From the NCBI RefSeq assembly GCF_000151315.2, contig NW_011887301.1, forward strand, positions 1,058,368-1,122,367: 64,000 bases of DNA. Reading direction: 5' to 3'. The notes beneath the pieces are model-generated. The model had not been told where the DNA came from, ran no database searches, and was given only the letters and a program-made list of their open reading frames with translations. Position 1 is the stretch's first letter, and each line of letters opens with the position of its first letter. This document shows positions 31,175 through 64,000 of the stretch, in pieces. The DNA comes from Capsaspora owczarzaki ATCC 30864 (taxonomy: Eukaryota; Opisthokonta; Filasterea). A program made the translations under genes and the position numbers.

Positions 31175-32276
31175 CTGCAATGGAAATGAGAGGGAAAAAA
31201 AAAAAAAAAAAAAAGAATGGATTTTGCATTGAGATGCATTATGAGATTGATAGTGAGCTTGTCGAGCTTGTAAAGAGCGATGTGGGGGGAGAGGGGCGAG
31301 TAAGAGAATTACAAAGTGCTCCATGAGTGGTCAAAAATGGTCAAGGGGGTGAGTTTCTCAGCTGGTGCGTGAGTAGTTCTCAGTTTGTTTGGCTTCCGTT
31401 TCGCAGGTCTCAGAGACGCGAGGTGTTCACAAGGTTGGCGCGTTGCCTCGATACGCTCATAATCATCATCCTTCATCACCATTCTCATCCTTCAGCTGCA
31501 ACAGTCTTTTGTACTTTTTCCATCTGTCTTTTCCCTCCTTTTTTTTTTTTTTTTTTTTTTGTTCTCTTTTCTTTCTTCTAAGGTGAGCCGCGCACACACC
31601 CCGCGGCGCCTCCGCTTTGACCCGCATTCACAGCAACTCTATTTGCATGACTTGATTTGCGGCAATCCATCCATTGATCACTGGGCTCTGCAATGAGTCA
31701 TCCAACAGCGTGGCAATGAAACCAAGAAGAAAAAAAAATCGAATGTGTCGGGACTGAAGCTTTCTGTTCCCCTCCCCCTCTTCAGCGAGTCCGAACGCGT
31801 TGCGTGGTGCCACAAAAGCACTGTGCTCAACGCTCTTTACATTTGTCATTGAGGCGGGTGAAGCGAGGCCGGGCATTGGCACAAACGGGAACTGCGTTGC
31901 TCCCATCAGAGCAGAGCTGCGAAATCCCCAGCCTCTACTCTCCCGCACGGCGTGCAGACTCCGCTATTGCGTTTCACAAGAGTTCGTTGATTGTCATCGC
32001 AGAGGTGGTTGTCTGGTGGACGCTCAAAGGGGGAAGTGGGAGAAATGGGGGAAATGGGGGGAATGGGTCGCTGCTTCTGCCAAGCATCGAATTCAAAAAA
32101 GAAAAAAAAAAAAAAAAAGGCAACAAATCACGCCTTCGCTGAAACGTTGGGATTCGGTGCGAAGAACGGAATAACGATGATGATGCCATTGTCGGAAGCA
32201 AATACCAAATGACTCACCGCAATCAATACCACTTCGTTGTAGCCACGACTGGTGTCGCGTTCGGTGCCTCAAAACC
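31175..32276. other. Divergent upstream region between SF3B3 and the laminin-like gene
   Basis: About 1.1 kb between two divergent start codons. It includes poly-T (31538-31560), poly-A runs and a probable SF3B3 5' UTR intron next to 31175. No coding sequence is supported. Promoters for both genes presumably lie here. Confidence 0.5.
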
Positions 32277-35200
32277 ATGAACAAGACTCCGCGGGCTACT
32301 CTTCTGCTGCTGCTTGTGCTCGCACTGATCAGCGCGTCCGCACATGGTGTGTCTATTGTCACCGGACCCTCGGACAAGGTGGTGTGCGCCGAGCAGAACG
32401 TGCATCTCAACCTGCTTGTCGGCGAGACTGGCGGCGAGACCAACTGCTGCACTGCGACTGTCGAGCGTGCCATCAAGAACGACGACGAGTGGGTTGCCAT
32501 CCCGACCGTGAGCGCAACCACCACTGCTGTGGACGCCTCCTCCTCGAACGTTGCCATCGAGCTTGCCCCGAGCCAAGTCAACGACGAGTTCACCTACCGC
32601 ATCACCATCGAAACGCTCGACGGCGCCACTGTCACATCCCAAGAGTTCTTCCTGGCCTTCTCTCTCCCGGCAGTGTTGCAAGCCCCCGAGACCAACGTTG
32701 CCGCCCAGAGCGCCATTTCCGTCACGGCCCAGCTGACTCCTTTGCGTCAGGAGCCCGAACTCAGTGTCATTCGCTTTACCAACTCTGGTCCAGGCTTTCT
32801 GCAATTCCGCCAGTCCTCCAGCAGTGTCAGCGATTTCGAGTACGAGGTGGTGGACAATGTGAACGCAGACACCATGTTTGAGATTTTGCCCACGCTGACG
32901 CTCGACACGAGCACCATTCTGCTGGTGGACCAAGCGGATGCCGACCACTTTTTGGCATGGCTCGACGCCTTCTTTGCCCAGTCGCTCCAGTACCTGAGCG
33001 ACCCCATCGGCGCCAGCTCTGTCGCCATTGCCCTTCGTGACTTTAACGGCCTGTCGTTTACGTCCACCAGCACCTGGCTTGGCATTTACACTGCCGCCCA
33101 GGCGCAAATCCACGACGCCGGCGCCATCGCGGACTTTGAAGCCGAGTTTGGCGGCCGCACCTTCACGTTGCTGTTTTCCGCGCCAACCAAAGTCGACGTG
33201 GTTGTGCGCAACTCGCAGGGCTCCTACCTTGGATGGATGACGTCTCCCCAAAGCCTGACGGCTCTCACGCAGATTGATGCCACCCAGTGCGCGCACAAGT
33301 GGTTCCTCGACAACTCGCGCCTGAAGGCCTCCTGCTCATCAACTCGCGCTCTGTCGCACCTGCTGACCGCTCCGCTCCTGGGCACCGCTATTCTGCCCAC
33401 TTCCCAAATCGCCATCATCTCGCAGTACACGACCAGCTCGCGCACCACCAGCGCCATCACCGACAGCACGTACTCGATCGGCTCGGGGGCTACCAGCTCG
33501 GCCGTCGGCGTGTGGTCGAGCCGTCGCTGCCAGCAGGTTGGCACATCGCACCTGCAGTCGCTGCTCGAGTGCGCTGCCCAAGACGACAACCCGACCTACC
33601 GTCAGGTCCACATCGAGCTCGGCGCCTTTGGCTTTGGCATCAAGTACGTCACCGTCGACCTCACCCACTACCCGCTGCCGTACCCCGTCGATGGCCCTTC
33701 TGCCGCCATCCTCCCGCGCCAGTCCGGTCACTCGACCTCGACCAAGTCCCGCCTCGAGCTGTGGGTTGCCCTCGCGCCCTCTGGCACGTGGATTGATGTG
33801 ACCGACTCTGTTACCGAAGATTTCACCCGCGACTGCGTGAGTCGCGGCCAGCGCCAGCGCCCGTGCCGTGTCACGTTCGACGTGCTCGAGTACCTCCGCG
33901 CGAGCGACACCATTCTCGGCAACCAGGCCATCTCCGACCTGCGCCTCGTGTTTGACGGCATTGAGCCCTCGTCGCTCGATCTCGACGCCGCCTACCGCTA
34001 CTTTGGCATCTCCGAGGTGCAGGCGATCGGCACCTGCATCTGCAACGGCCATTCGTCCACTTGCAACTACGCCACCGGCCAGTGCACGGGCTGCGAGCAC
34101 CACACGCAAGACGACACCTGCGGTTCGTGCGACAACACGCACTGGGAAAACCGCCGCAACTCGCTGCCTGCCGAGGTGGTCAACTGCGATCTCGCTGCTC
34201 CCGCCGTCGACAACGTGCTGGTCTGTGACGGTCCGGCCCTGGCCGACATTGACGTGTCCGAACTCGAGTCGCTGTTCTTTGAATCAGGCGGCCGCAGCGG
34301 TGTGATTGTTCCCGGCGTTTCTGCGCGCGACCTGCCCTCTGCCATCTTCTCCAAGTTCTTTGCCACTGGCGGCGCGTGCGTTCTCTGCAACTGCCACAAC
34401 CACTCGCTTGCTGACGCCGGCCAGAATGTCCGCGGCTGCGACGCGTCCACCGGCGTCTGCAACTGCGACCCGACCACCGAGACAACGGGCGACCACTGCG
34501 AGTCGTGCCAGGCCACTTGGTGCCGCTCCACCAGCCCATGCAACAACACCCCCTTGTCGAGCAGCGATCTGTACGCGTGCCGCCTGCAGTCGTGCAGCAA
34601 CGAGCGCTGCGACTGCAACGGACACTCCACTTTGCCCCAGGTCGGCGGCTTTGATCAGTGCGACGGCAACGGCTGCGGCTGCTCGTGCAACCCTGCCGAC
34701 GGCGTCACTGGCCCCCACTGCGAGAGCTGTCTGCCTGGCCACTTTTCGAGCACTGGCGACGGTGTCGATGGCGAGACATGCGAGCCCTGCTTCTGCAATG
34801 GCCACAAGGGCTCGCCCGAGACGTGCGACGTTTCTGGCGGCAACTGCGACCAGGCGGGCGACCCCTGCCAGGACAACACGACCGGCTTCAACTGCGAGCT
34901 CTGCCTCGACGGCTTCTACCGCCCGTTCCGCCCCGACGGCTCCATCGACCCCACTGACGACTGCATTCCCTGCGCTTGCAACGGCCACGGCGTCGGCCCC
35001 GCTCTGTGCAACCCCAATGGCGGCGTGTGCGACTGCGACCCGGCCTCCAACTCTGAGGGCGATCAGTGCCAGTCTTGCATTGTTGGCTTCTGGAGTGCCA
35101 CCGGCAACGCCGAGTCGGGCACCTCGTGCTCGGCGTGCGAGTGCAACGGCCACAAGGACTATGTCTCGAACGAGTGCAACGCGCTTGGTGGCGACTGCAT

Positions 35201-38200
35201 GACTGACTTTTCTGGCGCTCCCCAGCCCTGCGACGGCAACACGAACGACTTCCACTGCCAAGGCTGCGTGGCCACCTTCTTCCGTCCTTGCACCGTTGGC
35301 GTGCCGACCGCTTGCTCTGCTGTCGACTACACGGACGACTGCTCGCCGTGCGACTGCAACGGCCATTCCGTGTCGCCCATCGGTGGGTTGGACACTTGCA
35401 ACGCCGAAGGCGGTCTGTGCACCTGCACCAGCTCGAGTAACTCTGAGGGCGACAGCTGCGAAAACTGCAAACCCAACACTTGGAACGACTTTGGCAACTC
35501 TGAGGACGGCCGCGACTGCGCCCCGTGCGCCTGCTACGGCCACTCGGCCACCTGCAGCAACTTTGGCGTGTGCTCTGGCTGCCAAGGCAACACCGAGGGC
35601 AACAATTGCGAGCAATGCGTTGCTAGCAACAGCCGCGTCAATCCTGCCGCATTTGTTGGCTGGGACTTGCCGACGCCCGACCCGGCAGTGATTACCACCA
35701 TGCGCGAGCAAGACTGCACCCCTTGCAACTGCAACGGACATTCGCTCAACAATCCCACCATTGCGCCGGGTATCTGCACGCCCGAGCTCGGCATCTGCCT
35801 GAACTGCGGCGGCAACACGGCCAACGGCGCTGCCAACGAGTGCGACACTTGCGTTCCCGGCTTCTTCCGCCAGCTCACCAGCGCCGGGTTTGATCCTGCC
35901 AGCGACACCTGCAACGCCTGCTCCTTGGTCGACGGCGACTGCACTTCGGACGCGCTCACCGACGCCTGTCGCCCGTGCTCTGAGCAATGCTTTGGTGCCA
36001 ACACCATGTGCGGTGCCGACACTGGTATCTGCCAAGAGTGCGCTCTGTCGCACGCCGAGAGCCACCGCTGCGCCTCGTGCCAGAACGGCTACTTTGGCAA
36101 CCCTGCTGGCGGTATTCCCTGCACCCCTTGCAAGTGCTACCACTCTGCGCCGAGCAAGTTTGACCTGCTGACCGAAACCGAGATTGGCACCTTCCAGCAG
36201 TGTCTCTTTGACAACAGCCTTGGCGGCGTCAGTGGCGGAGCGCAGACGTGCATTTTCGACCACAGCGTCAACCCTGACGACGCTGCTGCTGATCCCCAGA
36301 GCGCCATTCTGTGCAGCTGCCCTCGCTCCATTCCCGGCGGCTTCTTCAACATTATTTCGTCGGGTGTCGTGTACGAGGGCCGCACGTGCGACTCGTGCAA
36401 CCAGGACGCGTACTTTGGCCAGCCCACGCAATGCCTCACCCCTGGTGTTGGCGGCAGCGGTCTTGGCGACTGCTTGTCGTTCGACACTTGCAACGAGTGC
36501 ATTTGCAACGGCAACATTGACGAGTCGAGCATGATGGACAACTGCGACTACTCTGCGGGCAACCCCAGCAACCTGATCTGCGAGGCCTGCCTCGGTCATT
36601 CGACCGGTCCCAACTGCGAGGTCTGCGAGGTTGGCTACTATGGCGACCCGACCCGTCTTGACACTCCCGGCACCATCGGCACGGGCTTTATTCTCGATGC
36701 CTCTGGCGAGTCGCTCAAGTGCTTCCAGTGCGACTGCAATGGCCACTCGATTGCACGTGTCGTCCCTGGCACCGAGGGTGACGTCCACAACGATACCTGC
36801 ACCACGGTTGCTCCTGGCTTTGTTGGCAACTACACTTGCGACTGCGACTCTGCCAACGGCTACACTGGCCCGACCTGCCGCGAGTGTCTGCTTGGCTACG
36901 AGCAAATCGCCCTCGGCGGCAACCTCTTCCGCTGCGATCCGTGTGACAACTGCACCCGCGACGCCGCTGCCATCATCTACGGTCTTATTGCAGATTACCA
37001 ACACACCATGTCTCTGTCGCAGTCGGTGGCCGCATCGACAGCCGCGATTGCCGCAGAGATTACCGCCATCAAGGACTCGCTTGGCCTCGCTCGTCGCGAT
37101 GCTGACGCTGTTGCAGGAAAAGCAGCCACCATCATTGCATTCCTGCCCACCGTTCAGCCTCTGGCCTCAGACGATAAGGCCCGCTCCCAGCAATTGAATG
37201 ACCTGCTTGAGGCCTTTGACGACCAGACCGCCCAGCAAGCCACCGAGCTGACTGCCCAGCTTGCCGGTCTGCTCGAGGATGCCAGCCAAGTTGGAAACAT
37301 GCTTGAATCCCCCGTTGTCGACCGTCTTCATGACGCCACGTCCACACTTGCCAACCTGCTTGCCCGCAACACGGCCAACCGCGATCAGCTTGTCACTTTG
37401 GAGACATCCCTCGAAAGCACCATGACGGCCTTTGCCAGCTCTTCCAACTGGCTGTCCACACATCTCCAGTTTGCAGTCGATGGTCGCGAAGAGCTGGATG
37501 CCGCAGCTGAAGGCCTCAAGTATGATCGCGCGGAAATGGAAGATTCGGTGGCAAAGCCCCTCAACAAGCTGACTTTGGTCTGGGAGTCTGTTGCTGCTGC
37601 CCTGGAGGCTCAAAGCTCGGCCGACTTGATGGCTCTTGTTGAGCGCGCGGGCACCGATGCTCTTCGCCGCCTTGATGCGCTCGCCGCCCGAGTCTCCAAA
37701 CTCGGCTCGCTCACCAACCAGGACAAGGTGCTGCTGTCCACTAATCGCGACACTTTGGCCGAACTGTCGGCTCGTGCCACGCTCTTGGAGGCCGATCTGG
37801 CCAACAAGGAGCTGGAGCAGTCCCATGCCATCATTGTCATCGCGCTCGGTGGTATTGACCAGGCTGTCCGCCAGTTTGCTGAGCAAGCCGGGTTGGCGGA
37901 AGACCACCTCATGGCATCGTTGCGCGACCTCGACCCGGCAAAGGCCCCGCATGTGACTGAGCTGGTTGAGCGAATTTCGACCGATCTCGAGCAGCACCGA
38001 ACCGAACTCGTCGATTCGTCAGCTGCCATGATTCAAGAGCTTCGCGCCGCATCGGCTGCCGCGTTTGCCACCGCCCAGACCAACTTGGCAACCGTCCAGA
38101 GCCAGAACGCGCGCCTCATGGTGCTGCAAAGCATGCTCGAGTTGATTGACAAGGCTGCGCACAAGGCTCTGAGCCGCGTCTCCGACCTCCTCGCAGGCTC

Positions 38201-39137
38201 GCGCATTTCCACCTTCACTGCCGCCGTGCAGGCTGGTACCGAGTCTGCCCTGTCTCCACTCGAGCGTCAAACATTCAACGAACACGGCAACAAGCTGATG
38301 GCAACCGCCGCAACCACGCTGACCCTGTCGCGCGAGATTCTCGACAACTTTTACGAGCGCCATCGCGCCATGCTTGTCCAATTCGGTGCCATGCTCAACG
38401 CCAACCCCGTTCAGGTTGATCGCCGTCAAGTTCAGTTTGACATGAGCGCTTTCGCATCTGTGCGCGAGGAACTTGGCCAAACCGCCAAAGTGGTTGCCGT
38501 CGAGTCCAGTGATGCATTGCACGAGCTTCAAACGGCCATCACATCGCGCGCCGGTGCATTGGCATCCATGCTGCAATCTGTCAACGTCGAGCTGAGCCGC
38601 ACCTTCTCGTCCATTCGCGCACAAACGTTCAAGGAGCTCACTGCAATTTCCGCGACCGTGGACAGCCTCCCAAGTGCCGTTGCCATGGTCGCGCGTGGCG
38701 TGGAAGACGAGCTGGCCGCGTTCGCTGACGAGAGCGAGCGGCAGTTTGCTGTGCTGCCCGACGTCGAAGCCGACGCTGTGGCATTGTTTGTGGCCGCATT
38801 CCGCGCTGAGGTTGGCGTGATTCGTGAGCGTCTCACGGAAACCAACCTGCTCGTGTCGGCCATCGAACAGGCCATCCAAGTCCAAGCAGACATTCTGGAT
38901 GGCGCGCACCGCACCAGCCAGGCCACTCTGCAGGATCTTCGAAACATGGACGCCAATGTCCGAGAATTCCTGTCCCTGCCCCCAGAAGCGTCCTTGACCA
39001 CGTTGAACTCTGCGACTGGCTTGCGGAGCTTCCGCATGACCGCGTCCAGTGCCTCGGGCCGCGCCGATCTATCCGCTCAATCGTATATTGAGTTCCTCCG
39101 CCAAACCGTGTCCAATACTCAATGTATCTTGCGGTAA
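32277..39137 (+). CDS. Laminin-like secreted protein (N-terminal domain, EGF-like LE repeats, coiled coil)
   Basis: One uninterrupted reading frame of 2286 aa. A signal peptide is clear (LLLLLVLALISASAHG). Residues 25-585 form a large domain ending in FGISEVQAIGTCICNGHSST; its exit sequence resembles the boundary between the laminin N-terminal domain and the first LE repeat. Residues about 585-1555 hold roughly twenty laminin-type EGF repeats with the CxCNGH pattern (for example CACNGHGVGPALC, CDCNGHSVSPIGG, CNCNGHSLNNP). At about 1553 a CDPCDNCTRDAAAI motif begins an almost Cys-free helical region of about 730 residues rich in Ala, Leu, Glu and Gln, predicted coiled coil. The chain ends with a single Cys (NTQCILR). 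This is the layout of laminin beta/gamma chains, where paired Cys start the coiled coil and a Cys near the C-terminus links chains. There is no LamG domain and no membrane anchor. The absence of introns in 6.9 kb contrasts with neighbouring genes. Confidence 0.85.
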   Translation: MNKTPRATLLLLLVLALISASAHGVSIVTGPSDKVVCAEQNVHLNLLVGETGGETNCCTATVERAIKNDDEWVAIPTVSATTTAVDASSSNVAIELAPSQVNDEFTYRITIETLDGATVTSQEFFLAFSLPAVLQAPETNVAAQSAISVTAQLTPLRQEPELSVIRFTNSGPGFLQFRQSSSSVSDFEYEVVDNVNADTMFEILPTLTLDTSTILLVDQADADHFLAWLDAFFAQSLQYLSDPIGASSVAIALRDFNGLSFTSTSTWLGIYTAAQAQIHDAGAIADFEAEFGGRTFTLLFSAPTKVDVVVRNSQGSYLGWMTSPQSLTALTQIDATQCAHKWFLDNSRLKASCSSTRALSHLLTAPLLGTAILPTSQIAIISQYTTSSRTTSAITDSTYSIGSGATSSAVGVWSSRRCQQVGTSHLQSLLECAAQDDNPTYRQVHIELGAFGFGIKYVTVDLTHYPLPYPVDGPSAAILPRQSGHSTSTKSRLELWVALAPSGTWIDVTDSVTEDFTRDCVSRGQRQRPCRVTFDVLEYLRASDTILGNQAISDLRLVFDGIEPSSLDLDAAYRYFGISEVQAIGTCICNGHSSTCNYATGQCTGCEHHTQDDTCGSCDNTHWENRRNSLPAEVVNCDLAAPAVDNVLVCDGPALADIDVSELESLFFESGGRSGVIVPGVSARDLPSAIFSKFFATGGACVLCNCHNHSLADAGQNVRGCDASTGVCNCDPTTETTGDHCESCQATWCRSTSPCNNTPLSSSDLYACRLQSCSNERCDCNGHSTLPQVGGFDQCDGNGCGCSCNPADGVTGPHCESCLPGHFSSTGDGVDGETCEPCFCNGHKGSPETCDVSGGNCDQAGDPCQDNTTGFNCELCLDGFYRPFRPDGSIDPTDDCIPCACNGHGVGPALCNPNGGVCDCDPASNSEGDQCQSCIVGFWSATGNAESGTSCSACECNGHKDYVSNECNALGGDCMTDFSGAPQPCDGNTNDFHCQGCVATFFRPCTVGVPTACSAVDYTDDCSPCDCNGHSVSPIGGLDTCNAEGGLCTCTSSSNSEGDSCENCKPNTWNDFGNSEDGRDCAPCACYGHSATCSNFGVCSGCQGNTEGNNCEQCVASNSRVNPAAFVGWDLPTPDPAVITTMREQDCTPCNCNGHSLNNPTIAPGICTPELGICLNCGGNTANGAANECDTCVPGFFRQLTSAGFDPASDTCNACSLVDGDCTSDALTDACRPCSEQCFGANTMCGADTGICQECALSHAESHRCASCQNGYFGNPAGGIPCTPCKCYHSAPSKFDLLTETEIGTFQQCLFDNSLGGVSGGAQTCIFDHSVNPDDAAADPQSAILCSCPRSIPGGFFNIISSGVVYEGRTCDSCNQDAYFGQPTQCLTPGVGGSGLGDCLSFDTCNECICNGNIDESSMMDNCDYSAGNPSNLICEACLGHSTGPNCEVCEVGYYGDPTRLDTPGTIGTGFILDASGESLKCFQCDCNGHSIARVVPGTEGDVHNDTCTTVAPGFVGNYTCDCDSANGYTGPTCRECLLGYEQIALGGNLFRCDPCDNCTRDAAAIIYGLIADYQHTMSLSQSVAASTAAIAAEITAIKDSLGLARRDADAVAGKAATIIAFLPTVQPLASDDKARSQQLNDLLEAFDDQTAQQATELTAQLAGLLEDASQVGNMLESPVVDRLHDATSTLANLLARNTANRDQLVTLETSLESTMTAFASSSNWLSTHLQFAVDGREELDAAAEGLKYDRAEMEDSVAKPLNKLTLVWESVAAALEAQSSADLMALVERAGTDALRRLDALAARVSKLGSLTNQDKVLLSTNRDTLAELSARATLLEADLANKELEQSHAIIVIALGGIDQAVRQFAEQAGLAEDHLMASLRDLDPAKAPHVTELVERISTDLEQHRTELVDSSAAMIQELRAASAAAFATAQTNLATVQSQNARLMVLQSMLELIDKAAHKALSRVSDLLAGSRISTFTAAVQAGTESALSPLERQTFNEHGNKLMATAATTLTLSREILDNFYERHRAMLVQFGAMLNANPVQVDRRQVQFDMSAFASVREELGQTAKVVAVESSDALHELQTAITSRAGALASMLQSVNVELSRTFSSIRAQTFKELTAISATVDSLPSAVAMVARGVEDELAAFADESERQFAVLPDVEADAVALFVAAFRAEVGVIRERLTETNLLVSAIEQAIQVQADILDGAHRTSQATLQDLRNMDANVREFLSLPPEASLTTLNSATGLRSFRMTASSASGRADLSAQSYIEFLRQTVSNTQCILR

Positions 39138-44355: not shown

Positions 44356-47172
44356 CTAGGCATCGTTGTTGACTTCAACGTTTGTGTACACAACGTCCGA
44401 GGTGGAAGTCTGGACGTGCGGATTCTCGTAAGCGGGCAGCTCTGCAACCGGGGAGCTGGAGCTTGAGCTCGGAGCTTCGTACGCGATCGAGTGCCTCGCT
44501 GCATTGCTGTTCGAGTTGCTGTAGAAAGGGTGTTCCGGCACTGGCGGAGGACGGATGGAGTCGTACAACCCTTCCCCAGACTGCTGATCGCTGCCAAGCC
44601 GATGGGTCTGAGCCAGAAATTCGGCCATTTTGGCCGACGCAAACGGATTTCCGCTGGGACTCGCTGCGTTGGTGTGCAGTGGAGGATTGTTCGCCTCTGC
44701 ATACATGGCCGCTTCGTTCCCATGATCGGAAAGAGGATTGGCCAGCATGGCTATCGTGGACATGGGAAGGTCCACAGTTTCAGAGCGTGCACGTCGAGAT
44801 GATAGAGCAGCTTCAGGCTTGCGGGCATTGCGGCGGCGGCGACGCGCAACCAGCACAAGCACGAGGATGAGGACAATCAGGAGCACACCAGCAACAACCA
44901 CCACAGGAATAATGACAGCCTTGTCGATCGAGCTCGCTGCTGCAACGCTGCAACGAGCGTTCGTCGCGTTCGTGCACACCACGTTCGCATAAGCACAGTC
45001 GGGTACAGCCGCGCAGGCCAAGCATTGCTCGGCGTCACCCGCAGTTGCGTTTGGCGAAATGTACGTGGTGGACTTGCAAGTCTCGCAAATCGAGTCATCC
45101 AGAGAAGTGCAAGTCACAGAAGCGCAGTTCGTCACGTTAGTGCAAGCGCTGCACGTGCGGTCGGTCAGATAGGTGCAAGCAACCACCTCAAACTCGTTGG
45201 AGGCGCACTCAAGACACGAGTGACACGTCGCGCTCGTCGTATTGTAGAACGTGCCGACAGGGCACTGCACGCACACAGAGTCGGTGGTGTCGGTGCACGA
45301 TACTTGAGCGCAGTTTTCAAGCGGCGTGCATTGCGTGCAGTTTCGGTTGGTGGCATGCGTGCACGCTTGCGACTCAAACGTGCCAACCTCGCAGGTGTCG
45401 CACGCCGCACACGCGTCTTGAGATGGCAGAGCAACGTCAGAAGAGCCGGGCACCAGGTAATGCTCCGAAGCACAGGCAGAGCAGCGGCCGTTGATTGGCG
45501 AGGTGCAGGAAACTGGCACATTGCAATTGCCAATGGCAGTGCAGACTCCGCAAACACGATCGACGGATGGACTGCACGGGGACAGCGAAAAGTTGCCCAC
45601 ACCGCAAGACGCGCACGCAGTGCAAACATCAGACACTCCTGAGCGCAGAGTCAAGTAGAAATCCGTCGCACAAGTGTAGCAGCGGGTGTTGCCAGCACCA
45701 TAGCAGGTCTGCTGAGATGCGCAGTTTGAGACCGATGTGCACGAAGTGCAAACTCGGTTGGTCGACGTGGTGCAAGCAACCGATTCAAACTGGCCCAGTG
45801 CACATGTGCTGGCGCATGGCGAGCAGACATCAGCACCGCCAACAGTCGTCCGATAATAGCCGGATGCGCACGCCGAGCACTGTGAGTTGCCGCTTGTCGT
45901 GCACGTCACTTGTCCAACACAGTTTGCAACGGACGTGCATGTGGTGCAGACGCGATCAGCTGCGGCGCCGCACGCTGCGCTTTGGAACTGACCGACAGCA
46001 CAGCTGCCCGAGCAAGGAGCACAGCGATCGGGTGTGGATCCGGTTCCAGCAATCAAGTAAAAGTTGCTGGCACACGCAGTGCATCGAGAGGTACTGCTGG
46101 ATGAACACGAAAGCGTGCCTCCACAGTTGGCGATCGCTGGGCATGCCGTGCACACTCGGTTGCTTGCCGTCGTGCAAGGGGTTGTTTCAAAAGTTCCTGT
46201 GGTGCAGGCCGCAGTGCAGCCCTGGCACGTGTCGCTCGAGGCACCCGCCACTTTGTAAAAGTTCGCGGCGCAAGTCGAGCAGCGCGAGTCCGTGCTCGAT
46301 GTGCATGTTGTGCTCGAGGCGGCGCACGAGGTGACGGCAGTACACGAAGTGCAAATGCGGTTGCTCGTGGGAGTACAATCCTGCGATTGAAAGGAGCCAG
46401 CAGAGCATGCGGACGTGCAAGAAGTGCAGGCAGTTGCAGACGACGAATCATGGTCCCATGTTTCAGTGCCGCAAGTGGTGCACGTCGTGCCGGCTGCGGG
46501 CGCATAGTTTCCAGGAGGACAAGTGATCGCCGCGGTGGCAGAGTTGGAATCGTGATCAAACGAGCCCGCGGGAACGTTAAAGTTGGTGCAGGGTCCAGCC
46601 TTGGCTCCGGTTGAAGTGTCCGTGCCCGCGCTGCAGGCAACACAGGCTGTCTCAACCAACGAATCGTGATCCGTCATGCCAGCAGGGCACTGGAAATTAA
46701 ACACAAACTGACCAGTGGTCAGTCTGTCGGAGTTTGCATTGGTTCGATCGCCCGCGTACCGGCACAAGTGCAAGTAGTAGAGTGTGCCGGAAGTGGCAGG
46801 GAATGAGATGGTTGATTGGCGGACGCAGCTGTCGTCGGCCAGCTGGTTGAGATTAGTGCCAAAATTATTGACGCAAGAGCCACTCGAAAGAAAAATGATT
46901 GTGTCGTCAGTAGTCAAGGAGCATGTGGTCGTGTAGATGGTTCCCGCGGTTGCTGGTGTGTACTGCCAGGTCAAACACTTGCCTCCACCACTGCCAGTGA
47001 TGGCGGTGTTCTCCCACGGCGCGTTGTACTGGCCAATGGATCCGCTATATGAGCGTGCCGCACCACTAGACCCGGTGAACGCTGGTGCGCCAGAGCATGA
47101 AGCGGATTGTGCGCGGGCCGAGTGAACGGCACAGAGCACAACCAGCAGAATTGCCAGTCGCAACGTCGCCAT
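44356..47172 (-). CDS. TNFR-like cysteine-rich type I membrane receptor with tyrosine motifs in the tail
   Basis: A single-exon frame of 938 aa. The start at 47172 (MATLRLAILLVVLCAVHSARA) gives a clean signal peptide; the longer frame upstream lacks one. Residues about 25-170 form a separate Gly/Ser/Cys-containing domain. Residues about 175-740 are tandem cysteine-rich repeats of about 40-75 residues with TNFR/furin-like spacing (C-x-x-C, TNRVCTxC, FYxxxG), for instance TASNRVCTACPAI. A transmembrane helix (IIPVVVVAGVLLIVLILVLV) is followed by ARRRRR and a tail of about 165 residues. The tail has a Pro-rich RPPPVPEHP and several tyrosines, including YSNS, YENP and YTNV, which fit the pYxN consensus bound by Grb2-type SH2 domains, plus LYDSI. 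No kinase or death domain is present. A signalling receptor role is inference. Confidence 0.82.
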   Translation of the reverse strand: MATLRLAILLVVLCAVHSARAQSASCSGAPAFTGSSGAARSYSGSIGQYNAPWENTAITGSGGGKCLTWQYTPATAGTIYTTTCSLTTDDTIIFLSSGSCVNNFGTNLNQLADDSCVRQSTISFPATSGTLYYLHLCRYAGDRTNANSDRLTTGQFVFNFQCPAGMTDHDSLVETACVACSAGTDTSTGAKAGPCTNFNVPAGSFDHDSNSATAAITCPPGNYAPAAGTTCTTCGTETWDHDSSSATACTSCTSACSAGSFQSQDCTPTSNRICTSCTAVTSCAASSTTCTSSTDSRCSTCAANFYKVAGASSDTCQGCTAACTTGTFETTPCTTASNRVCTACPAIANCGGTLSCSSSSTSRCTACASNFYLIAGTGSTPDRCAPCSGSCAVGQFQSAACGAAADRVCTTCTSVANCVGQVTCTTSGNSQCSACASGYYRTTVGGADVCSPCASTCALGQFESVACTTSTNRVCTSCTSVSNCASQQTCYGAGNTRCYTCATDFYLTLRSGVSDVCTACASCGVGNFSLSPCSPSVDRVCGVCTAIGNCNVPVSCTSPINGRCSACASEHYLVPGSSDVALPSQDACAACDTCEVGTFESQACTHATNRNCTQCTPLENCAQVSCTDTTDSVCVQCPVGTFYNTTSATCHSCLECASNEFEVVACTYLTDRTCSACTNVTNCASVTCTSLDDSICETCKSTTYISPNATAGDAEQCLACAAVPDCAYANVVCTNATNARCSVAAASSIDKAVIIPVVVVAGVLLIVLILVLVLVARRRRRNARKPEAALSSRRARSETVDLPMSTIAMLANPLSDHGNEAAMYAEANNPPLHTNAASPSGNPFASAKMAEFLAQTHRLGSDQQSGEGLYDSIRPPPVPEHPFYSNSNSNAARHSIAYEAPSSSSSSPVAELPAYENPHVQTSTSDVVYTNVEVNNDA

Positions 47173-48358
47173 CTTGTTGCGCTCGGTCGTTTTGGTCTTT
47201 GAGAAGCTGAGGTAGAAATCGAGCGCCTGCGAGCACAAAAGAGAAAAACAAACAGTGCGATGCGACGATGGGACAATGTAGATCTTCATGGTGAGTTGAA
47301 CAGTTTGTGTTGGGAAGAGATCGGTTCACACAAAACAAAAGGGATAAAGTCGCAACGAATCGCAGCACCATGTCCACACTCTCAAGTCATAACTGTCCAA
47401 TGGTTGTGGAAGAAACAGTAGCGGCAACAAATCCGGAAGACCGCGAGAAGTTTGTTATCAGTTTGTTTATTAACACAACCCCATGGCAATTATTCCCCTT
47501 TTGTACCACCCTGCCGTTCACTGTCTCGCCGACCCTGCCCTCAACCAAGCAAAAAGGTCATAAAATGACCAAGTGAAAACAAGTGGCTGGCGGAGTGCCT
47601 GTGCACAAGTTGATGAGGAGCCCCCTTTCCACAAACAACCTCGGATCAAATCGAAAACCCAACAAAAAAGGAACATAATGAAGAAACTCAAACAAACCGC
47701 AGCCGACACGATCGCACGAGTCAGTGCCAAATGCATGCCGTGATCAGCCACATGTTCAGCGATTCCCGTCGAAGAGTTTTTCAGGGAGAGAGAGAGAGAG
47801 AGAGAGAGAGAGCATTGAACAAAACATGGACAAAGCAGATCTCGCTTACAAAAAAAAAAAACGAAACCGCGAGGCTGAAGAAAACAACAAAACCAACAAA
47901 AGAAGCAACGATAACAAAACAAAAAACAACGAGTGGACTGGTAATTATCAACCAGAAGCGTCTTTGTTTTCTATTGGTCCTCAATTGCAGTTGTACAAAA
48001 AGTAGGTCTACATGTGTGTGTGCTCAACGCAGGCATCACTACAACGCATGGCCATGTTTCTTCAATGCCCATGCATTGGTTTGAAAGCGGCAGTCAGCAG
48101 ACACGCGCGTGGTTGGGGCAAACCTCAAACCTCAACAACTGCCACACGTGTTCCAGTTCTGCTTCGACCTCACAGCCAAGTCCTCCTCACGATGGCCGTT
48201 CCAAGATAGAAAGGCGATTATCGCGGACATGAAAACGGCCTTCTGCTGCCGCAGTGCACATGCCGCCAACTAGTGCGTTCTGATCCGAAAACATGACATT
48301 CCGACGCTTGGAGAACGCTGAAACTGTCGTCGCGTAGGTCAAGCATCGACAAGATTGC
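47173..48358. other. Intergenic region
   Basis: About 1.2 kb between the receptor start and the 3' end of the polymerase kappa gene. It holds an AG repeat (47785-47812) and A-rich tracts. Small open frames on both strands showed no recognisable similarity. It should contain the receptor's promoter. Confidence 0.5.
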
Positions 48359-54985: not shown

Positions 54986-56110
54986 AACAAAAGACCACGC
55001 TGCTGATCATCGCTTTTTCCAGAGAAAAGGCATTCAGGTCCAGCATGGCTCCTTGATATCCTCGGTTCGCACCCGGCCTTCCAGCACATCGACCATAACG
55101 GCGGCATCCTGAGAGGCACAGAGCTACTTCGAGGCCAATGGAAAGTAGAGCGTTTCAAAAAGCGCGCGCTTTTTTGGCGGTTTTTTTTTTCTTTTCAGAG
55201 TCTTTATCATTTTCCATGCGATCAATGCTCATCGGGTCCTTCCAAAACTCCCAACGTGCCGAAGCAAAATCCCTCCCGCCAAAACACCAAACTCTCGCAG
55301 TGAATGCTTTGCTTTTTTCAACTCTCGACTGTCATCGCTTCCAAGCAAACGAAAAACACACAGCAAAGACTTGTCTGCAAAAACAAACGGACTGCAGCAA
55401 AAAAACTAGAAGCGAAAAAAATCAAAAAAAAAAAAAAAAAAAAGCACATGGCTTTTTTCAGTTTTCTTCTCTTTTGTCTCTTTCGTTCGTTCGTTCAATG
55501 CTGGAAAGTCAGATCCGCAGTGCTGCTTTTGTGCGCAAACGAAGGTCTCTGTTGTTGTTGAAGTGTTTCAGTCGCCGAAGAATGAAAGTGAGGGCAAAAA
55601 GGAGAAGGCAACACTGTTTGAAAGAGCGACGAATTGGAAGTCAAACAGAATCAAAAAACGGCAGCAAAAGGGAAAAAAATAGAGGAAAACGCAATGGAAA
55701 AAGCATTGAAAAGCACATTGAAAAAAAAAAACAGGAAAATAAAAAAAAAAATAACCACCAAAAGGTAGCTGAAAAACAGGCAACAGTCTGATAGGGAAGA
55801 AAACGCAAAATAGAAACAGTTAGTAACGAGTTAAACCGCATTAGAACGAAACAAAAAAAAGCAACAATTGATTATTTTACCATTCAAGACTGAGCGAAAA
55901 CCGACGCTTCCTTCTTTGGAATTACTGTCGCTGATGAACACGGTTTAGCTTCAAAAAGTGAGCCCGTTTGTGATGATCAGTCTGTATTACTGTACTGTTC
56001 TGTTTGGAAAATCCAGTAATGCTGGAGATGGACGAGAGGAGGAACACAATCCGTTCGTTTTTCAAGATGTTTTCAGCTTTGAATCCCCCTCCCTTCCCCC
56101 CTTCCTCCCA
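54986..56110. other. Intergenic region upstream of the IPT-LRR gene
   Basis: About 1.1 kb, A-rich from 55400 to 55870 with poly-A runs. Two short minus-strand stretches look protein-like (see rejected list) but cannot be joined into a gene. It should include the promoter and 5' leader of the gene starting near 56111. Confidence 0.45.
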
Positions 56111-59100
56111 ATGTCCTTTTCAATATCGAACGAATATCATCATCATCATCATCACCATCATGCAATTTCTGCTCAGCTCGGCTCAGTCGACAATTCACTT
56201 TCGCATTTGATCGCAGTTGAAGCGCGGACGCCGAATTTGGTAAGCGTTCGATTCTTTGTGCTGACGCTATGGATATGGATATGGATATGGACTCTTTGTC
56301 GCTGCGTGTGGCTCAATGCATGGCAGCACTTTGCCCTACTAGGCTTTTGTGACGTCTCCCCAATGGAGTACCCGGCGTGGACGTGCTTGTACAGCCGCGA
56401 CGCGAGGCGTGCTGGGGCACCACTCGCCACTGCCGCGCTCGCCATCCACACAGACGCGCCCATCCAGCTCCAGGTGAGTGCTGCTCAATGGTTTGTGTGG
56501 AGATGAGTTTTGCGATGGGCGAGTCGGCAGTCCGGTCAAAGTCATCATCCACCTCGACCCCTTCAATTCTACTCATTTCGCTCGCTGTCGCTCAATGACC
56601 ATTCTGAATTGGGGGTGTTGTGTGTGTTCAGTATGGAAAACACTTTCATGGACGAAAGCGCGAAATCAAGGACTTTCCAGTTGTGTCGGTACAGCTCGTC
56701 TCGAGCGCTACAAGCTCAGTCTCGTCAAGCAGTAGCAGCAGCAGTAGCAGTAGCGCATCCTCATTCAACAAGAATAGTAGTGCTGCCATGCCCAAGGACA
56801 GTAAAAGTATCGTGACGGAAGCGCTGACGGCGCGCGATGTGCCGCTCGCGCCAGGCCGCACCCTCAAACTGGGCTTGAGGCTCATCAAAGGCAAATCGCC
56901 GTTTGCACTGCTCGCAGATCCGGCTCGGTTTGTTGCTGGCTGGGATGCACGCGAGCATCGTCCGGATGTGTTTAACGGCGGGGCTATGGTTGGCCACTTT
57001 CTCACGAGCGAAGTTTCCGGCAAGGGTCACAACAAGACCGAGTTTCATGTCGAGGTCGCCTTGTTTGAATGCGACGCCACTGCAAATCTTGTTGTAGATA
57101 GCAGCAGCTCCTCTTCTGACGCGGGCAGCGGGCCGTTCATCTCGCTGTCTTCCACCGACAACGCCGAGCTGCTCTTTCTCTACGTTTCGAAGGGATTTTA
57201 CGTCAATTCCCGCACCCAAAAGGCTGGTGCGGACGCGGGCGATGCTGATGCGTCGCTGTTGGGCACTGATGGATTCGATCTGCCTGCTACAACAGCCAAA
57301 GAATTGCCATCGCACTCCACCGGCCGACACCAATTTATGCTGGATTTGTCAGGCGGCCGCCCGCCCCAACAACAACAGCAGCAGTCCCAGCACCTTCCTT
57401 CAACCTCACCACAATTCTTGTCTTTTGCAACTCCCCAACCCGTGACGGATGCCGACGTTGGCGACTTGCTGGCCCCTGCGTCGGCTGGATTATTGGACGA
57501 TCCTCTGCAAGGACTAACGCCCTCGCTGGCCACTCCAGGAACGGTGTCTGGCTTCCTGAGTACTTTCCAACAGCAGTCATTCGGCTTTACACCCTCGCCG
57601 ATGGTGACAGAGGACACTGTATTAGCTTTGCCCACCTCCGCCTCCATCCAAATGGGACGAACGTCCGACAACGATGACGGTTTCTTTTCTACCCTCGGAG
57701 AGCTGCTCGACCCTGCACTTCCACTTGGCATTCCTCTCGACACGCCGTCAGATCTGCACATACCATTTCCCGAAACGCCCCACCTGGCACCACAGCAACA
57801 ACAGCAACAACAACAGCAACAGCATCTGCTTCAACCACAGCCATTGGACACACCTCTCGGACTCTCTGCTTTCTCGGCGCTGCCGCTTGGTGAGATGCCG
57901 ACTGAGCGCGACTTGCCCCTCCAAGTCGGTACGCCGCTGAGCAGCACAGCCTCTCTACTCTCCGACAAGTCTGCTGCCGCCTCGCCCTCAGCCTATTCAA
58001 TGTCGTCAATGTCATCATCAAGCATTAGTGGCGGAGTGTCCTCTTCCATGACTGGCGACGATGTGCCGACCGTGGATCTCGATGCTCTCGTTCGCTCGCT
58101 GTCTGTGACGGAACACCGCCAAAGCGTGAGCGCCATCACCATCTATCTTAGCCCCAAATCGGGCCGCGAGGGAACCGAGATTATCCTGGTCGGGTCGCTG
58201 GACTTTCCTCTCGATGTCTTTATCAACTTTGGTTGGCTGTTCTTGCAATGCGAAGAAGTTATTCCAGGGCAACGGCGCGTTCTCAAGCTTAGGCAAGTGG
58301 GCATTTGTTTGTGTTTGTGTTTGCATGGATGGCAAAAAAATCCCATCATCCCCAGCGTCTCATTTTGCACATCTGTTTGTTATATATTTGCTCCGCAGTC
58401 ATGTTCCATCGTATGAAGCCGCCGTCTCGGGATTGGTCAATCGTAACGATTACAAGCGGGGCTGTGTGCCCGTGTCGGTTTTCTCGTCGGACTTGCAGTC
58501 GGGCTCGACAAACACGGAAATCTTCACGTATGACACGTTCCAGGAGACGGGCTTGGACCGCCCTCAAACGCGCCGTGGTCGTGGGGACGACGATAATGAC
58601 GACCCCGAGTACCGCGACCGCGCGAAACGCTTCCGCACACTTGACGTGATGGAACGCATGCTGCGCTCGACGCACCAGCTGGAGCAGTCCTCATCCAACC
58701 TCTCGTCCATCATGCAAGGGTACACGACCACCAGCCATGCGTCCAATCGGCTGCTCCATCTCATGTCGCTTGATTTGCGTGGCAAGTTGGAATCCCAGGC
58801 CGAACAGCTCGCAGTGCGCTCCGCCATCCATCGCGAACTGATGGAGCGCTCCGTTTTGGCCGCCCTGCACCATCTGCGAGACATCTGGCACTCGGGAGAC
58901 ATGAATGGCCTCGACTTGGACGGGATGTCGCTTCTCCATTATGCAGCCATGGGCGGCCGAGACATGCTCGTACAGTTCATTCTGCAGCATGGTGGCGATG
59001 CTGGCGTCCTCGACAGCCGTGGCAGGCCGTACACCCTACCGACCGGGCCCATCCGCGCAGTGCGTTCTCCGCGGTCTGGCGCTTCGCCGTCGTCCTGGCT

Positions 59101-61207
59101 GCCGGCCGACCACTCATTCAAGCACTCTTGGCGGCACTCGGTTGGAGATGCATCGTCAGGGTCCCTGAGCCCCAAGCTCAGTGGTGCGACCTTCTCCTCC
59201 TCTGCGGCACCCGAAGTGTCAATCACCACAGCCGCAGCGTCTCTGGTGTCGCACAGCGCCCCTGCGTCGCACATTCCGACTCGCCACGCAAGTCCCGCAG
59301 TGGCCGAGCCTTGGCTTCAGACACCCATCTCGGGCCAAGTCCCACCGCTGCCCACCAACGTGTCCGCTGCCGCGGCCGCTCACGCCCTGTTGCCTCGCAA
59401 GCGCTCTTCCAGCGATGCTCGCTCATCGGTCGGTCCGGTCGACAGTGGGAGCGCAGCTTCCGGCGAGGTCTCGCACGGTGTCCCCGCCGTTCAGGAGGTC
59501 GCGTCAGCCGTGGGCCTGGATGAAACGGGCACCAATACCAGCAGCAGCGCTCCTCCGCCGCCTCCTCCTCCTCCTCCCCAAGCTGTGCTGCCGACAACAT
59601 CGGAACCCACACGTCCAGGGGTGCCAGCTGCTGGTCGACCGCTTGCTGCACGCGCTCGACCCCACTCGTTCCACTATAGCTTGCTTCGCCCCCAGTGTCA
59701 CGCTGCCCAGGTGCAAGTGGACGCTCTGTCAACCCGATTGACGGCGCTCCAACTGGAAGGGCGATTTTCGCACCTCGCACCCGACGGCGGCACGCTTGAG
59801 AACAGCGCGACAGCTTCTGCAAACCTTTCACCCGCCACCCAAAGCCTGCTACAAAGCCTCCCGACCGACCTTCAGGCGACCATTTCTGCCTCGAGCGACC
59901 TCACATCATCCAATCCTACGCACATTTCCCAGCTTGCGGAACTGGCAGAATTGGTGCGAGCGTTGGGCTTGTCGAGCGATGCCCTCTCTTCGCTCATCTC
60001 GCTCACCGGGCTGCCCGAGAAGCTGACGGTGCTTCCACTCTCCAACAACCACCTCAAAACCCTGCCCCGAGAAATTGCGCAATTCAAAAGCCTCGAAATG
60101 CTCCTTCTCGACCACAACCAGCTGTCGCGTGTCGACTATGTGCACTCCTTGCCAGATCTCGCCAAATTGTGGTTGCACAACAACTGGCTCGAGAGTATTC
60201 CGTTCGGGCTTTGCCAGCTCAAGGGGCTGAAGACACTCCTTCTCCACTCCAACCAAATCACAACCATTCCGCCTGAATTTGGAGAACTGGCCGAGCTGGA
60301 GGTGCTGTCCCTCGACCACAACCTCCTTACGTCCATTCCCCCTCATTCGCTCGGTCGTCTCACGCGCATGGTCAAGCTGAACCTGAACAATAACCAACTG
60401 ACAGGCCTGCCTGCCGACATTGGCAATCTGACGAGACTCAAGACGTTGAGTCTGCACGACAACTGTTTGAGCTCGTTGCCAACCAGCTTTAGCGCGTTGG
60501 CCAATGTCAAGCGCCTCTCGTTGGCAGGCAACCGCTTCGCCACGATTCCTGTCGAAGTCTGTCGCCTTGCCAGCTTGGTCGAATTGAATATGGATAACAA
60601 TGCAATCACCGCCATTCCTCCGGCTCTTGGAGAGCTTGGTCAGGAGCTGCACACCCTCAGCCTGGCTCACAATTTCCTGACACAGCTGCCCGGTTTGAGC
60701 AAGCTGGCAGGCCTGCGCAGCTTGGACGTCTCCTTCAACAAGCTGACCAAGCTGTCCCCTGAAATTGGACGCATGACGCGGTTGAACATTCTTTTGCTGA
60801 ATGACAACCAGCTCGTGACCTTGCCTCCCACCATCCGCATCATGGCCAAACGATCGCTCAAGGCTCTCCGCCTTGCCAACAACCCTCTGTACAGCGGCGT
60901 CGAGTCGCTCACGCAAACGTACGAGATCCCCTCCTTGTTTGCCCTCTGTGCGCAAAAGATCTTTGAATGTGATCGGCAGGAGGATTTAGCCTCGTTGACG
61001 CCGGGGGTTTTGGCATACCTCAAAAATCCTCGTCGCTGCTTCATTTGTGCGCGCCACTACTTTGAGTCTCCTGCTCGGTTTGTGTCGTTTGTCAACATTG
61101 GCGGTATGCGCGTCCCGCTGGACTATGAACTGTGCTCTATTCGCTGCGTTGGGCGCGTGCAACGTGGGTTTGTGCGCTCCGACAAGTGGAAATTTGCGTT
61201 TGACTGA
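56111..61207 (+). CDS. IPT/TIG-domain, ankyrin and leucine-rich-repeat fusion protein (transcription-factor-like N-terminus, LRRC58-like C-terminus)
   Basis: Four exons (56111-56239, 56327-56473, 56632-58292, 58399-61207) give about 1581 aa. The last intron has a GC donor (AG|GCAAGT). An N-terminal region (HFALLGFCDVSPMEYPAW, YGKHFHGRKREIKDFPVVSV) may be an immunoglobulin-like DNA-binding domain but is not recognised. A low-complexity Ser/Gln-rich stretch resembling an activation domain follows. An IPT/TIG domain lies at about 593-720 (ITIYLSPKSGREGTEIILVG). One clear ankyrin repeat is at about 815-855 (DGMSLLHYAAMGGRDMLVQF), then a disordered linker. About thirteen LRRs of 23 residues span 1176-1480 (LPLSNNHLKTLPREIAQFKS). 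The C-terminus has CFICARHYFES, RVPLDYELCSIRC, a cysteine cluster as in LRRC58. IPT plus ankyrin recalls CAMTA, NF-kB or fungal Mga2. The start is uncertain: an in-frame ATG also exists at 55973. Confidence 0.8.
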
Positions 61208-61436: not shown

Positions 61437-64000
61437 TCATTGCAACTTGGCCAGCAAGGACTGATAAAAGTGTGCGACAGACTCCTCTTCGTCGAGATTC
61501 ATGTCAAGATAGGCGAGAGAATCTTTGGAAATGGTGGGCAAGATTTCGTTCGCAATCACTTGGCGGGTGTGCTCGGTATCGTCCATAAACCCATCGTCGT
61601 CGTCGTCGTCGTCGCTGTCAACGGGCGTGGCACTGGCTCCGGAACCAGGGGTGGCAGGAGCATCCTCAACCCCAAACTGCTCCTTTTGAAGTCGCTCGAA
61701 GGCGCGGTTGAGATCGCCGTCGCACTCTGCCAACGTCTGCTGGATGCGCTCCGCTGGCATGTAAATGCCCATCGAAGACAGCAATGCGGTAAGGTCGCCG
61801 AGGTTGCCCGTACCCATCCTGGCAGCAGGCGAAGGCGGAGCCGAGCCGGAGGAGCCGGCAGCGCTCGTCCGTCGGCGATGATGCGTGGGCTTGGCGAACA
61901 GCTGCGGGCATGTGGTCAGGAGCTGCATGGCAATCTCCAGGTTGTTGTTGGCCTGTCGCAGCGCAGCGCCGGCGGCGTGCTTGGGGAAGCCGGTCGAGTG
62001 CAGGTACTGGAAAAGATTGACGTCAACCCACTCGCCCCGAGTGGTGCGTCCCAGCCGACGCTGCAACTCGCGGTTGAAGCGGCTTTGCTCGTGTTGCTCG
62101 CGGTGCGTTTGCTCCTGCTGCCGGTGGGCAAAGTGGAGCTCGAGGGCGCGGGAGACGTCGTTCGGCTCGCGAAGCGCGACGCGAGCCTGCGTCGACGTCA
62201 ATCCCATCGTCATGAGCTGCTCCACCGCTGCCGGGTCGGGCTTCATGCTGGTAATCTCACGAGTCACCTCCTCGAGCAGACGAGAGCACTCGGCACGCGC
62301 CGACACGACGGCCGAAGCGACTGCTGTCGGGTTTGAGCCTGATGCTGCTGGGCGGCGCGCAGCCGTCTCGTGGAAGAGCACGGCAGCCTTGAGCAGCTTG
62401 AGACGAACGAGAAAGACCATTTCTGGGGGCACGGCACCCTCGCGGGTTCGCCGCAGACGCTCCAAGTTGGCACCGTAGCTGCGCTTGAGCGTTGCTTCGC
62501 AGGTGGCAAGTCGGCGCGTGGCGTCCGGCAACGAGGTCACGTCGCGGAGCATCAAGTAGCAGTACACAATGTCGAGCTGGAGGAGACCCAGGTTGTCGAC
62601 GTTGTCTAGAATGTCGCTGCGGCATTTGGCAAACTCTGCGTCCGCCTCCAGCAGGAATGTGAGGGCAGACGAATAGAGACGCTGTCGCTCAATCTCCACT
62701 GGCTGGGGCAGCGCGCGCTGTGGTGACGCCAGAGGTGCGAGTGCTGCAGCAGCGGCTGTCAATCCTTGATTGGTAGAAGTGGTGGTAGTGGTGGTGGTGG
62801 TGGTGGTGGTGCTGGGGGTCGCGGACGCCGATTGCGGCAGCGGCGAGCTTGGCAAGAATGTGGGCGGGAAGAGCGGCGGCGCCGTCGTGTACAGACCTGC
62901 GCTCGGGCTGCTCGGGACGCTTGATGCCGGGCTCGATGGCTGGCTGGCGCGCGGGCTCGACAGTCTGCTGNNNNNNNNNNNNNNNNNNNNNNNNNNNNNN
63001 NNNNNNNNNNNNNNNNNNNNNNNNNNNNNNNNNNNNNNNNNNNNNNNNNNNNNNNNNNNNNNNNNNNNNNNNNNNNNNNNNNNNNNNNNNNNNNNNNNNN
63101 NNNNNNNNNNNNNNNNNNNNNNNNNNNNNNNNNNNNNNNNNNNNNNNNNNNNNNNNNNNNNNNNNNNNNNNNNNNNNNNNNNNNNNNNNNNNNNNNNNNN
63201 NNNNNNNNNNNNNNNNNNNNNNNNNNNNNNNNNNNNNNNNNNNNNNNNNNNNNNNNNNNNNNNNNNNNNNNNNNNNNNNNNNNNNNNNNNNNNNNNNNNN
63301 NNNNNNNNNNNNNNNNNNNNNNNNNNNNNNNNNNNNNNNNNNNNNNNNNNNNNNNNNNNNNNNNNNNNNNNNNNNNNNNNNNNNNGCTGCGTCGCGGACG
63401 CAGCCAGCCGGCGGTGCTCGTCCTCGCGCTGGCTGTGGCTGGCGGGCGACTCCATATGGTCCACCGCAGCATCCAGCGCGACGGGTGTGAGGACGGCCAT
63501 CGCGCGCACCGTCGTCATGACCACAGTGGGTGTAGTGCTACTAGCAGCAGCAGGTGAGATTGGCGTCGATGATGCGAGCGCAGGAGCGCTGCTGCTGCTG
63601 CTGTGGCTGGGCGTCGGAGTGGTTGGCGGCGATGGCTGTGGCGGGAGCTTGAACAACGTGGCGAGCGTCATGTCGGCGTGCTCACGGGGCAGCTCAACCA
63701 TGGATGATGATGATGATGATGAGGATGAGGATGCGGATGCTGATGGGGTGGCAGAGACAATGCGGCCGGCGGCAATCAGCTTGACTGCGTACGCTGACGT
63801 TGCTGGCTGACTGTTTCGAGCGGCAGTGACAATGCTCTCGACCAGCCACTGCACCGACGCGCTCGACTTTGCAGCGATGGTCACAGACGACGGCAGTAGT
63901 GGTGCTTTTGGAGCAGCGTCGGATGTGGTGGTGGTGGTGGTGGTGGTTGACGAGGAGGATGTGGATGAGGCTGAGGATGACAGGCGAATCACCACAGTGA
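61437..64000 (-). CDS. NUB1: NUB1-like NEDD8/FAT10-binding UBL-UBA protein (partial, N-terminus outside window)
   Basis: NUB1 carries NEDD8 and FAT10 conjugates to the proteasome. The stop is at 61437-61439. The C-terminal half matches the family: LGLLQLDIVYCYLMLRDVTS, LKRSYGANLERLRR, LVRLKLLKAAVLFHETAA, then three UBA-type domains (AAVEQLMTMGLTSTQARVAL; FQYLHSTGFPKHAAGAALRQ; LTALLSSMGIYMPAERIQQT) and an acidic tail DSDDDDDDDGFMDD ending SLLAKLQ. Upstream of the gap, residues encoded around 63770-63900 (VQWLVESIV, AVKLIAAGRIVS, MTLATLFKL) look like a ubiquitin-like domain with Ser-rich insertions. The frame is open to the window edge, so the start lies beyond 64000. The 415-base gap (62971-63385) hides part of the protein, and whether the two sides share a frame is not known. 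Confidence 0.85.
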   Translation of the reverse strand, partial: TVVIRLSSSASSTSSSSTTTTTTTTSDAAPKAPLLPSSVTIAAKSSASVQWLVESIVTAARNSQPATSAYAVKLIAAGRIVSATPSASASSSSSSSSSSMVELPREHADMTLATLFKLPPQPSPPTTPTPSHSSSSSAPALASSTPISPAAASSTTPTVVMTTVRAMAVLTPVALDAAVDHMESPASHSQREDEHRRLAASATQXXXXXXXXXXXXXXXXXXXXXXXXXXXXXXXXXXXXXXXXXXXXXXXXXXXXXXXXXXXXXXXXXXXXXXXXXXXXXXXXXXXXXXXXXXXXXXXXXXXXXXXXXXXXXXXXXXXXXXXXXXXXXXXXXXXXXXXXXXXSRLSSPRASQPSSPASSVPSSPSAGLYTTAPPLFPPTFLPSSPLPQSASATPSTTTTTTTTTTTSTNQGLTAAAAALAPLASPQRALPQPVEIERQRLYSSALTFLLEADAEFAKCRSDILDNVDNLGLLQLDIVYCYLMLRDVTSLPDATRRLATCEATLKRSYGANLERLRRTREGAVPPEMVFLVRLKLLKAAVLFHETAARRPAASGSNPTAVASAVVSARAECSRLLEEVTREITSMKPDPAAVEQLMTMGLTSTQARVALREPNDVSRALELHFAHRQQEQTHREQHEQSRFNRELQRRLGRTTRGEWVDVNLFQYLHSTGFPKHAAGAALRQANNNLEIAMQLLTTCPQLFAKPTHHRRRTSAAGSSGSAPPSPAARMGTGNLGDLTALLSSMGIYMPAERIQQTLAECDGDLNRAFERLQKEQFGVEDAPATPGSGASATPVDSDDDDDDDGFMDDTEHTRQVIANEILPTISKDSLAYLDMNLDEEESVAHFYQSLLAKLQ
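62971..63385. other. Assembly gap (415 N)
   Basis: A run of N inside the NUB1 coding region. The flanks are Ser/Pro/Ala-rich low-complexity coding sequence, which is a likely reason for the gap. Confidence 1.

Follow-up and report, generated by a model that had tools for sequence, protein, structure and literature searches.

Does the unicellular holozoan Capsaspora owczarzaki possess a gene that joins a transcription-factor-like module to the substrate receptor of a ubiquitin ligase? The question is raised by a gene on the plus strand of a stretch of 64,000 nucleotides (the window, C10:1058368-1122367 of a genome searched here as 29 contigs totalling 27.46 Mb), which the initial annotation described as an IPT-ankyrin module fused to an LRRC58-like leucine-rich repeat (LRR) protein. 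Both qPCR primers published for Capsaspora GAPDH (PMC9170242) match the genome exactly, 0.53 kb apart, inside a gene recognisable by eye as GAPDH, whereas a coYki primer from that study had no match with up to one mismatch. We consider that a single gene here encodes an LRRC58-type Elongin B/C-CUL2 substrate receptor extended by a long N-terminal region, a reading to which we assign a probability of about 0.5. The C-terminal half is its best-founded part. The gene model and the features of that half are, in window coordinates:

56111-61207, plus strand: whole gene model, four exons joined by the splice model, 1581 amino acids (aa) without an internal stop
56111-56239 and 56327-56473, plus strand: exons 1 and 2 (splice model)
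56632-58292 and 58399-61207, plus strand: exons 3 and 4 (splice model)
58293-58398, plus strand: intron 3, inferred to be of GC-AG type, linking exons 3 and 4 in frame and without a positive codon score in any frame
60023-60895, plus strand: 13 LRRs, aa 1188-1478, with in-register cores spaced 22-25 aa apart
60929-60961, plus strand: BC-box-like PSLFALCAQKI, aa 1490-1500, a candidate Elongin C-binding helix (LRRC58 alignment and consensus)
60995-61021, plus strand: cullin-box-like LTPGVLAYL, aa 1512-1520, degenerate (tail alignments and consensus)
61037-61147, plus strand: Cys cluster, a putative zinc loop, with CxxC at aa 1526-1529 and CxxxC at aa 1558-1562 (aligned with LRRC58, 9T7V chain B)

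Both the run of about thirteen LRRs and the LRRC58-like Cys tail that had been proposed for this protein were recovered. An LRR regular expression matched 15 times within aa 1165-1581 (two matches out of register), whereas 1000 shuffles averaged 1.6 matches and never gave more than 6. Moreover, the LRR region matched Pfam LRR_4 with an E of 1.1e-36, and the LRRs fold in an AlphaFold2 model of LRRs plus tail. When the tail was searched against PDB sequences a single match fell below E=1, namely residues 255-336 of LRRC58 (E 0.033). This match spans the stretch that binds Elongin as well as the Cys loop; all four Cys are aligned and the BC-box-like motif coincides with the BC-box region of LRRC58. 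The motif calls follow the BC-box and CUL2 cullin-box consensus, the former of which also matches once within an LRR, at aa 1330. The Cys cluster gave a weak treble-clef match (VATC, E 0.019, below the cut-off). No NCBIfam match to the tail was found, nor any relative in viral contigs (1 stretch tried), where the scans, like those of prokaryote genomes below, use collections not built for eukaryotes and detect close relatives only.

Two papers of 2025-2026 describe LRRC58 as an Elongin BC-CUL2/CUL5 receptor and link it to the degradation of CDO1 (PMC13156300, PMC12589099), and an earlier annotation as a BC-box protein is cited in one of them (PMC13156300). In the same sources, deletion of a putative ELOB-binding region, residues 256-291, abolishes binding of CUL5, ELOB and ELOC (PMC12589099), whilst cryo-electron microscopy shows the BC-box, cullin-box and zinc loop (PMC13156300). 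The residues matched by the window tail overlap region 256-291 as well as the part with these three elements. The window protein shares with LRRC58 an LRR solenoid followed by a BC-box-like motif and a Cys loop in the same order, with a degenerate cullin-box-like stretch between these two; unlike LRRC58, about 1180 residues precede its first LRR. Both of the partners sought in the genome, a CUL2-type cullin (on C1) and Elongin C (on C8), are present. From these motifs and the published biology of LRRC58 we infer a receptor function, and to this extent the suggestion of a ubiquitin adaptor holds up. The LRR solenoid would bind a substrate, the BC-box and cullin-box would recruit Elongin B/C and CUL2-RBX1, and the substrate would then be ubiquitylated and degraded. 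More tentatively, the N-terminal half, with its Q/S-rich stretches, possible Ig-like domain, basic patch and single ankyrin repeat, might direct the protein to a partner or into the nucleus, resulting in local degradation.

The window gene was set aside as the orthologue of LRRC58, since another Capsaspora gene, C1:2709730-2711265, matches LRRC58 over LRRs and tail. It aligns in one stretch to residues 43-366 of LRRC58 (9T7V_B, E 2.6e-62) and is the likely orthologue; the E-values of two LRRD1 chains are marginally lower, but these match over LRRs only, whereas LRRC58 is matched through the tail. The tails of the likely orthologue and the window protein share no more than 29% identity. A further Capsaspora LRR gene, at C1:2382443, shares LRRs, a BC-box-like PSLFELAARKV and a Cys/His cluster with the window gene, its tail being 25% identical. 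An alignment of the three tails shows PSL..L unchanged throughout; of the four Cys positions the first three are C in every tail and the fourth is C/H/H. The likely LRRC58 orthologue (plus strand, stop ending at C1:2711265) is also convergent with a CDO1-type gene on the minus strand, whose open frame ends at C1:2711719, 453 bp away (C1:2706500-2714500). In mammals CDO1 is degraded by LRRC58, with which it is reported to co-evolve as a partner (PMC12589099); genes for receptor and substrate may thus be direct neighbours in a unicellular holozoan. No paper treating Capsaspora together with LRRC58 was found in the open-licence literature searched.

A receptor with such an extension presupposes one gene spanning both halves, which we consider likely from the genomic sequence. 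As the initial annotation had it, the last exon (58399-61207) runs without a stop from the supposed IPT end through a weak ankyrin repeat, a linker, the 13 LRRs and the Cys tail in one open frame. A splice model with its acceptor at 56342 and with GT donors closing exon 3 was rejected, since every variant contained at least 14 stops; intron 3 then requires a GC-AG donor. Its donor, AG|GCAAGT, agrees with the GC-AG consensus, and its G+C is 0.42. The choice of start codon is uncertain, there being a second in-frame ATG at 55973, upstream of the modelled start at 56111. The two halves are connected by:

59039-59956, plus strand: linker of low complexity, rich in S/P/A, aa 860-1165, its open frame continuous with the gene's

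No stop occurs in the 308 codons of the linker stretch 59024-59947; however, a first-order Markov null of equal composition was stop-free in 517 of 20000 runs, and so the open linker alone is modest evidence. With 15 further long frames of the window as the training set, codon log-odds reached 0.037 in frame against a null of -0.063 (standard deviation 0.031), a value equalled in 1 of 2000 null runs, and over the whole linker they were positive in the gene's frame only. At 0.65 the G+C of the linker exceeds that of the flanking intergenic DNA (0.42 and 0.38) and of the three introns (0.42-0.51). Moreover, there is no in-frame ATG between 58964 and 60098, and the start of a separate LRR gene would therefore have to lie within the ankyrin repeat or ahead of it, unless splicing supplied a start from another place. 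Neither AATAAA nor TATAAA occurs in exon 4.

The N-terminal half contains the following:

56632-57345, plus strand: N-terminal region, exon 3 part, aa 93-330, no detectable family
58123-58546, plus strand: IPT-like stretch recognised by eye, aa 590-695, split by the intron at 58293-58398; sequence tests give no support
58898-59026, plus strand: one weak ankyrin repeat on its own, aa 813-855, below the cut-off of Pfam (Ank_5, E 0.0017)

Within aa 1-334 the sole Pfam match was DUF3446 (E 1.1), located in a Ser-rich stretch; a trimmed query had no Pfam match. The AlphaFold2 model of aa 93-330 is without confidence (mean predicted local distance difference test score 32.6). Against the rest of the genome the region gave nothing below E 0.05 and four matches at E 0.06-0.95. 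Of 36 stretches tried in viral contigs and 288 in prokaryote genomes, none was confirmed as a relative. The half also holds Q/S-rich stretches and a basic patch, KRFR. No 19-residue stretch of the protein exceeds a hydropathy of 1.43 and there is therefore no clear membrane anchor. We assign no family to the fold of the extension, though it could conceivably include an Ig-like domain.

The IPT/TIG domain of the initial annotation was not borne out and remains a pattern seen by eye. The stretch had no match among PDB sequences or in NCBIfam, and none in Pfam at E<=10, where filters discard most matches above about 0.1. Alignment by hhalign to five TIG domains of the same genome gave a probability of 0.1%. 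With a hidden Markov model of six such domains the two domains of the region scored -1.8 and -0.9 bits, whilst the best 25 rows were all shuffles, at 1.8-4.6 bits (at least 25 of 500 shuffles). Nor did Pfam hmmscan match the window protein to the Rel, CG-1 (a family presumably included in Pfam) or SPT23_MGA2_DBD profiles. The ankyrin repeat was detected, as a single repeat below the Pfam cut-off; in the three alignments shown against designed ankyrins its best stretch had an i-E of 0.00058, the far lower whole-sequence E-values arising because several matches of the same residues are summed. The IPT-ankyrin part as a whole had four matches in the rest of the genome (E 0.006-0.78), three of which cover the ankyrin part. 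With the IPT domain unsupported and one sub-threshold repeat beside it, the transcription-factor half of the proposed fusion does not hold up.

Several observations weigh against the receptor reading. The tail match to LRRC58 is weak (E 0.033), and the AlphaFold2 model is without confidence over the tail (block means 23-32). With LRRs and tail as query LRRC58 was not among the best 60 of 408 matches; in a further alignment (VIA-align 2) the matches listed were LRR proteins and LRRC58 was not among the 50 given, which does not imply its exclusion. The cullin-box retains the Pro and one hydrophobic residue, two positions being off the consensus. As for the linker, in its first half one reverse frame scores 0.021 compared with 0.028 in the gene's frame. 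Its synonymous-codon score is no better than the null (411/2000; 507/2000 in a second test) and slightly higher in another frame, and its G+C is flat across codon positions without a position signal. The linker's codon signal therefore stems from amino-acid content. Donor-like sites at 59060, 59288 and 59713 and an acceptor-like site at 59404 all lie inside the linker, such that splicing within it is possible. Lastly, the gene was read from genomic DNA alone. The weak tail match and degenerate cullin-box would also suit an LRR scaffold whose tail has lost Elongin and cullin binding, the architecture reflecting neutral domain shuffling; yet the tail retains every one of the four Cys positions and a BC-box-like motif, and we consider this unlikely. 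It is similarly improbable, in our view, that two genes are present, the upstream frame stopping near 58300-58420 and an LRR receptor gene beginning inside exon 4, for example at the earliest in-frame Met of that exon, aa 730 (58649), in which case the fusion would be a mere artefact of joining in a model drawn from genomic DNA. In favour of this, reading through intron 3 gives exon 3 its own in-frame stop (frame 56608-58416) and the intron depends on a rare GC donor. However, that donor matches the consensus and joins the frames, the composition of the intron is non-coding, and an LRR protein would still carry the linker and all or part of the ankyrin repeat unless spliced from another start.

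A true IPT-ankyrin transcription factor (Rel-, CAMTA- or Mga2-like) fused to an LRRC58-like receptor would constitute a DNA-bound ubiquitin ligase. Mga2/Spt23, CAMTA and NF-kB are IPT plus ankyrin transcription factors, with which the window protein shares a possible by-eye IPT-like pattern, a basic patch and an ankyrin repeat. In aa 594-690 the eye finds I..sPk.G..GT.I.l.Gs..F....v.i.FG, followed by the basic patch and then the ankyrin repeat. Unlike those factors it has no SPT23_MGA2_DBD, CG-1, Rel or TIG profile match and one ankyrin repeat instead of several, and unlike Mga2 it has no clear membrane anchor. A Rel profile search of the genome also missed the Capsaspora NF-kB described in a published study (PMC8677719), and a profile miss is therefore weak evidence, leaving the IPT reading unsupported, not disproved. 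Against it stand the lack of TIG support from Pfam, PDB or the genome itself and the location of the only SPT23_MGA2_DBD match of the genome search, C1:1717419 (E 2.1e-42), because of which an Mga2 identity for the window gene was dropped. We therefore regard such a factor as distinctly unlikely. Least probable is its fullest form, in which a DNA-binding IPT-type regulator with a built-in CUL2 substrate receptor would bind its own target genes and degrade factors there. Two double-TIG frames do occur elsewhere on C10 (546301 and 552031, some 5.7 kb apart); they have equal scores and are perhaps a recent tandem duplication.

Other frames in and near the window were also recorded. The downstream neighbour (61440-62969, minus strand) has UBA domains (Pfam UBA, E 2.2e-10) and is a second ubiquitin-related gene; a tandem pair of Skp1-like genes lies on the minus strand at C10:1246958-1248896. 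At 20272-23391 (plus strand) there is a SNF2/helicase C-terminal frame; for the domain at its end the best match is the DNA ligase 3 BRCT family (E 2.6e-22). The frame at 32184-39134 (plus strand, 2317 aa) carries laminin-type EGF domains and that at 44359-47325 (minus strand) contains five TNFR-type cysteine-rich stretches, here in a unicellular organism.

In summary, what appears to remain after these tests is the receptor architecture, the striking IPT half of the claim being without support. Domain fusions are common in protists. No description of this architecture was found among the titles and abstract openings listed in searches of the open-licence literature. In Capsaspora, where genes can be disrupted (PMC9170242), another LRRC58-type receptor that carries a long N-terminal half would make it possible to study how targeting domains were acquired by ligase receptors outside animals. 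Should that N-terminal half bind DNA, a single polypeptide would amount to a chromatin-directed ligase.

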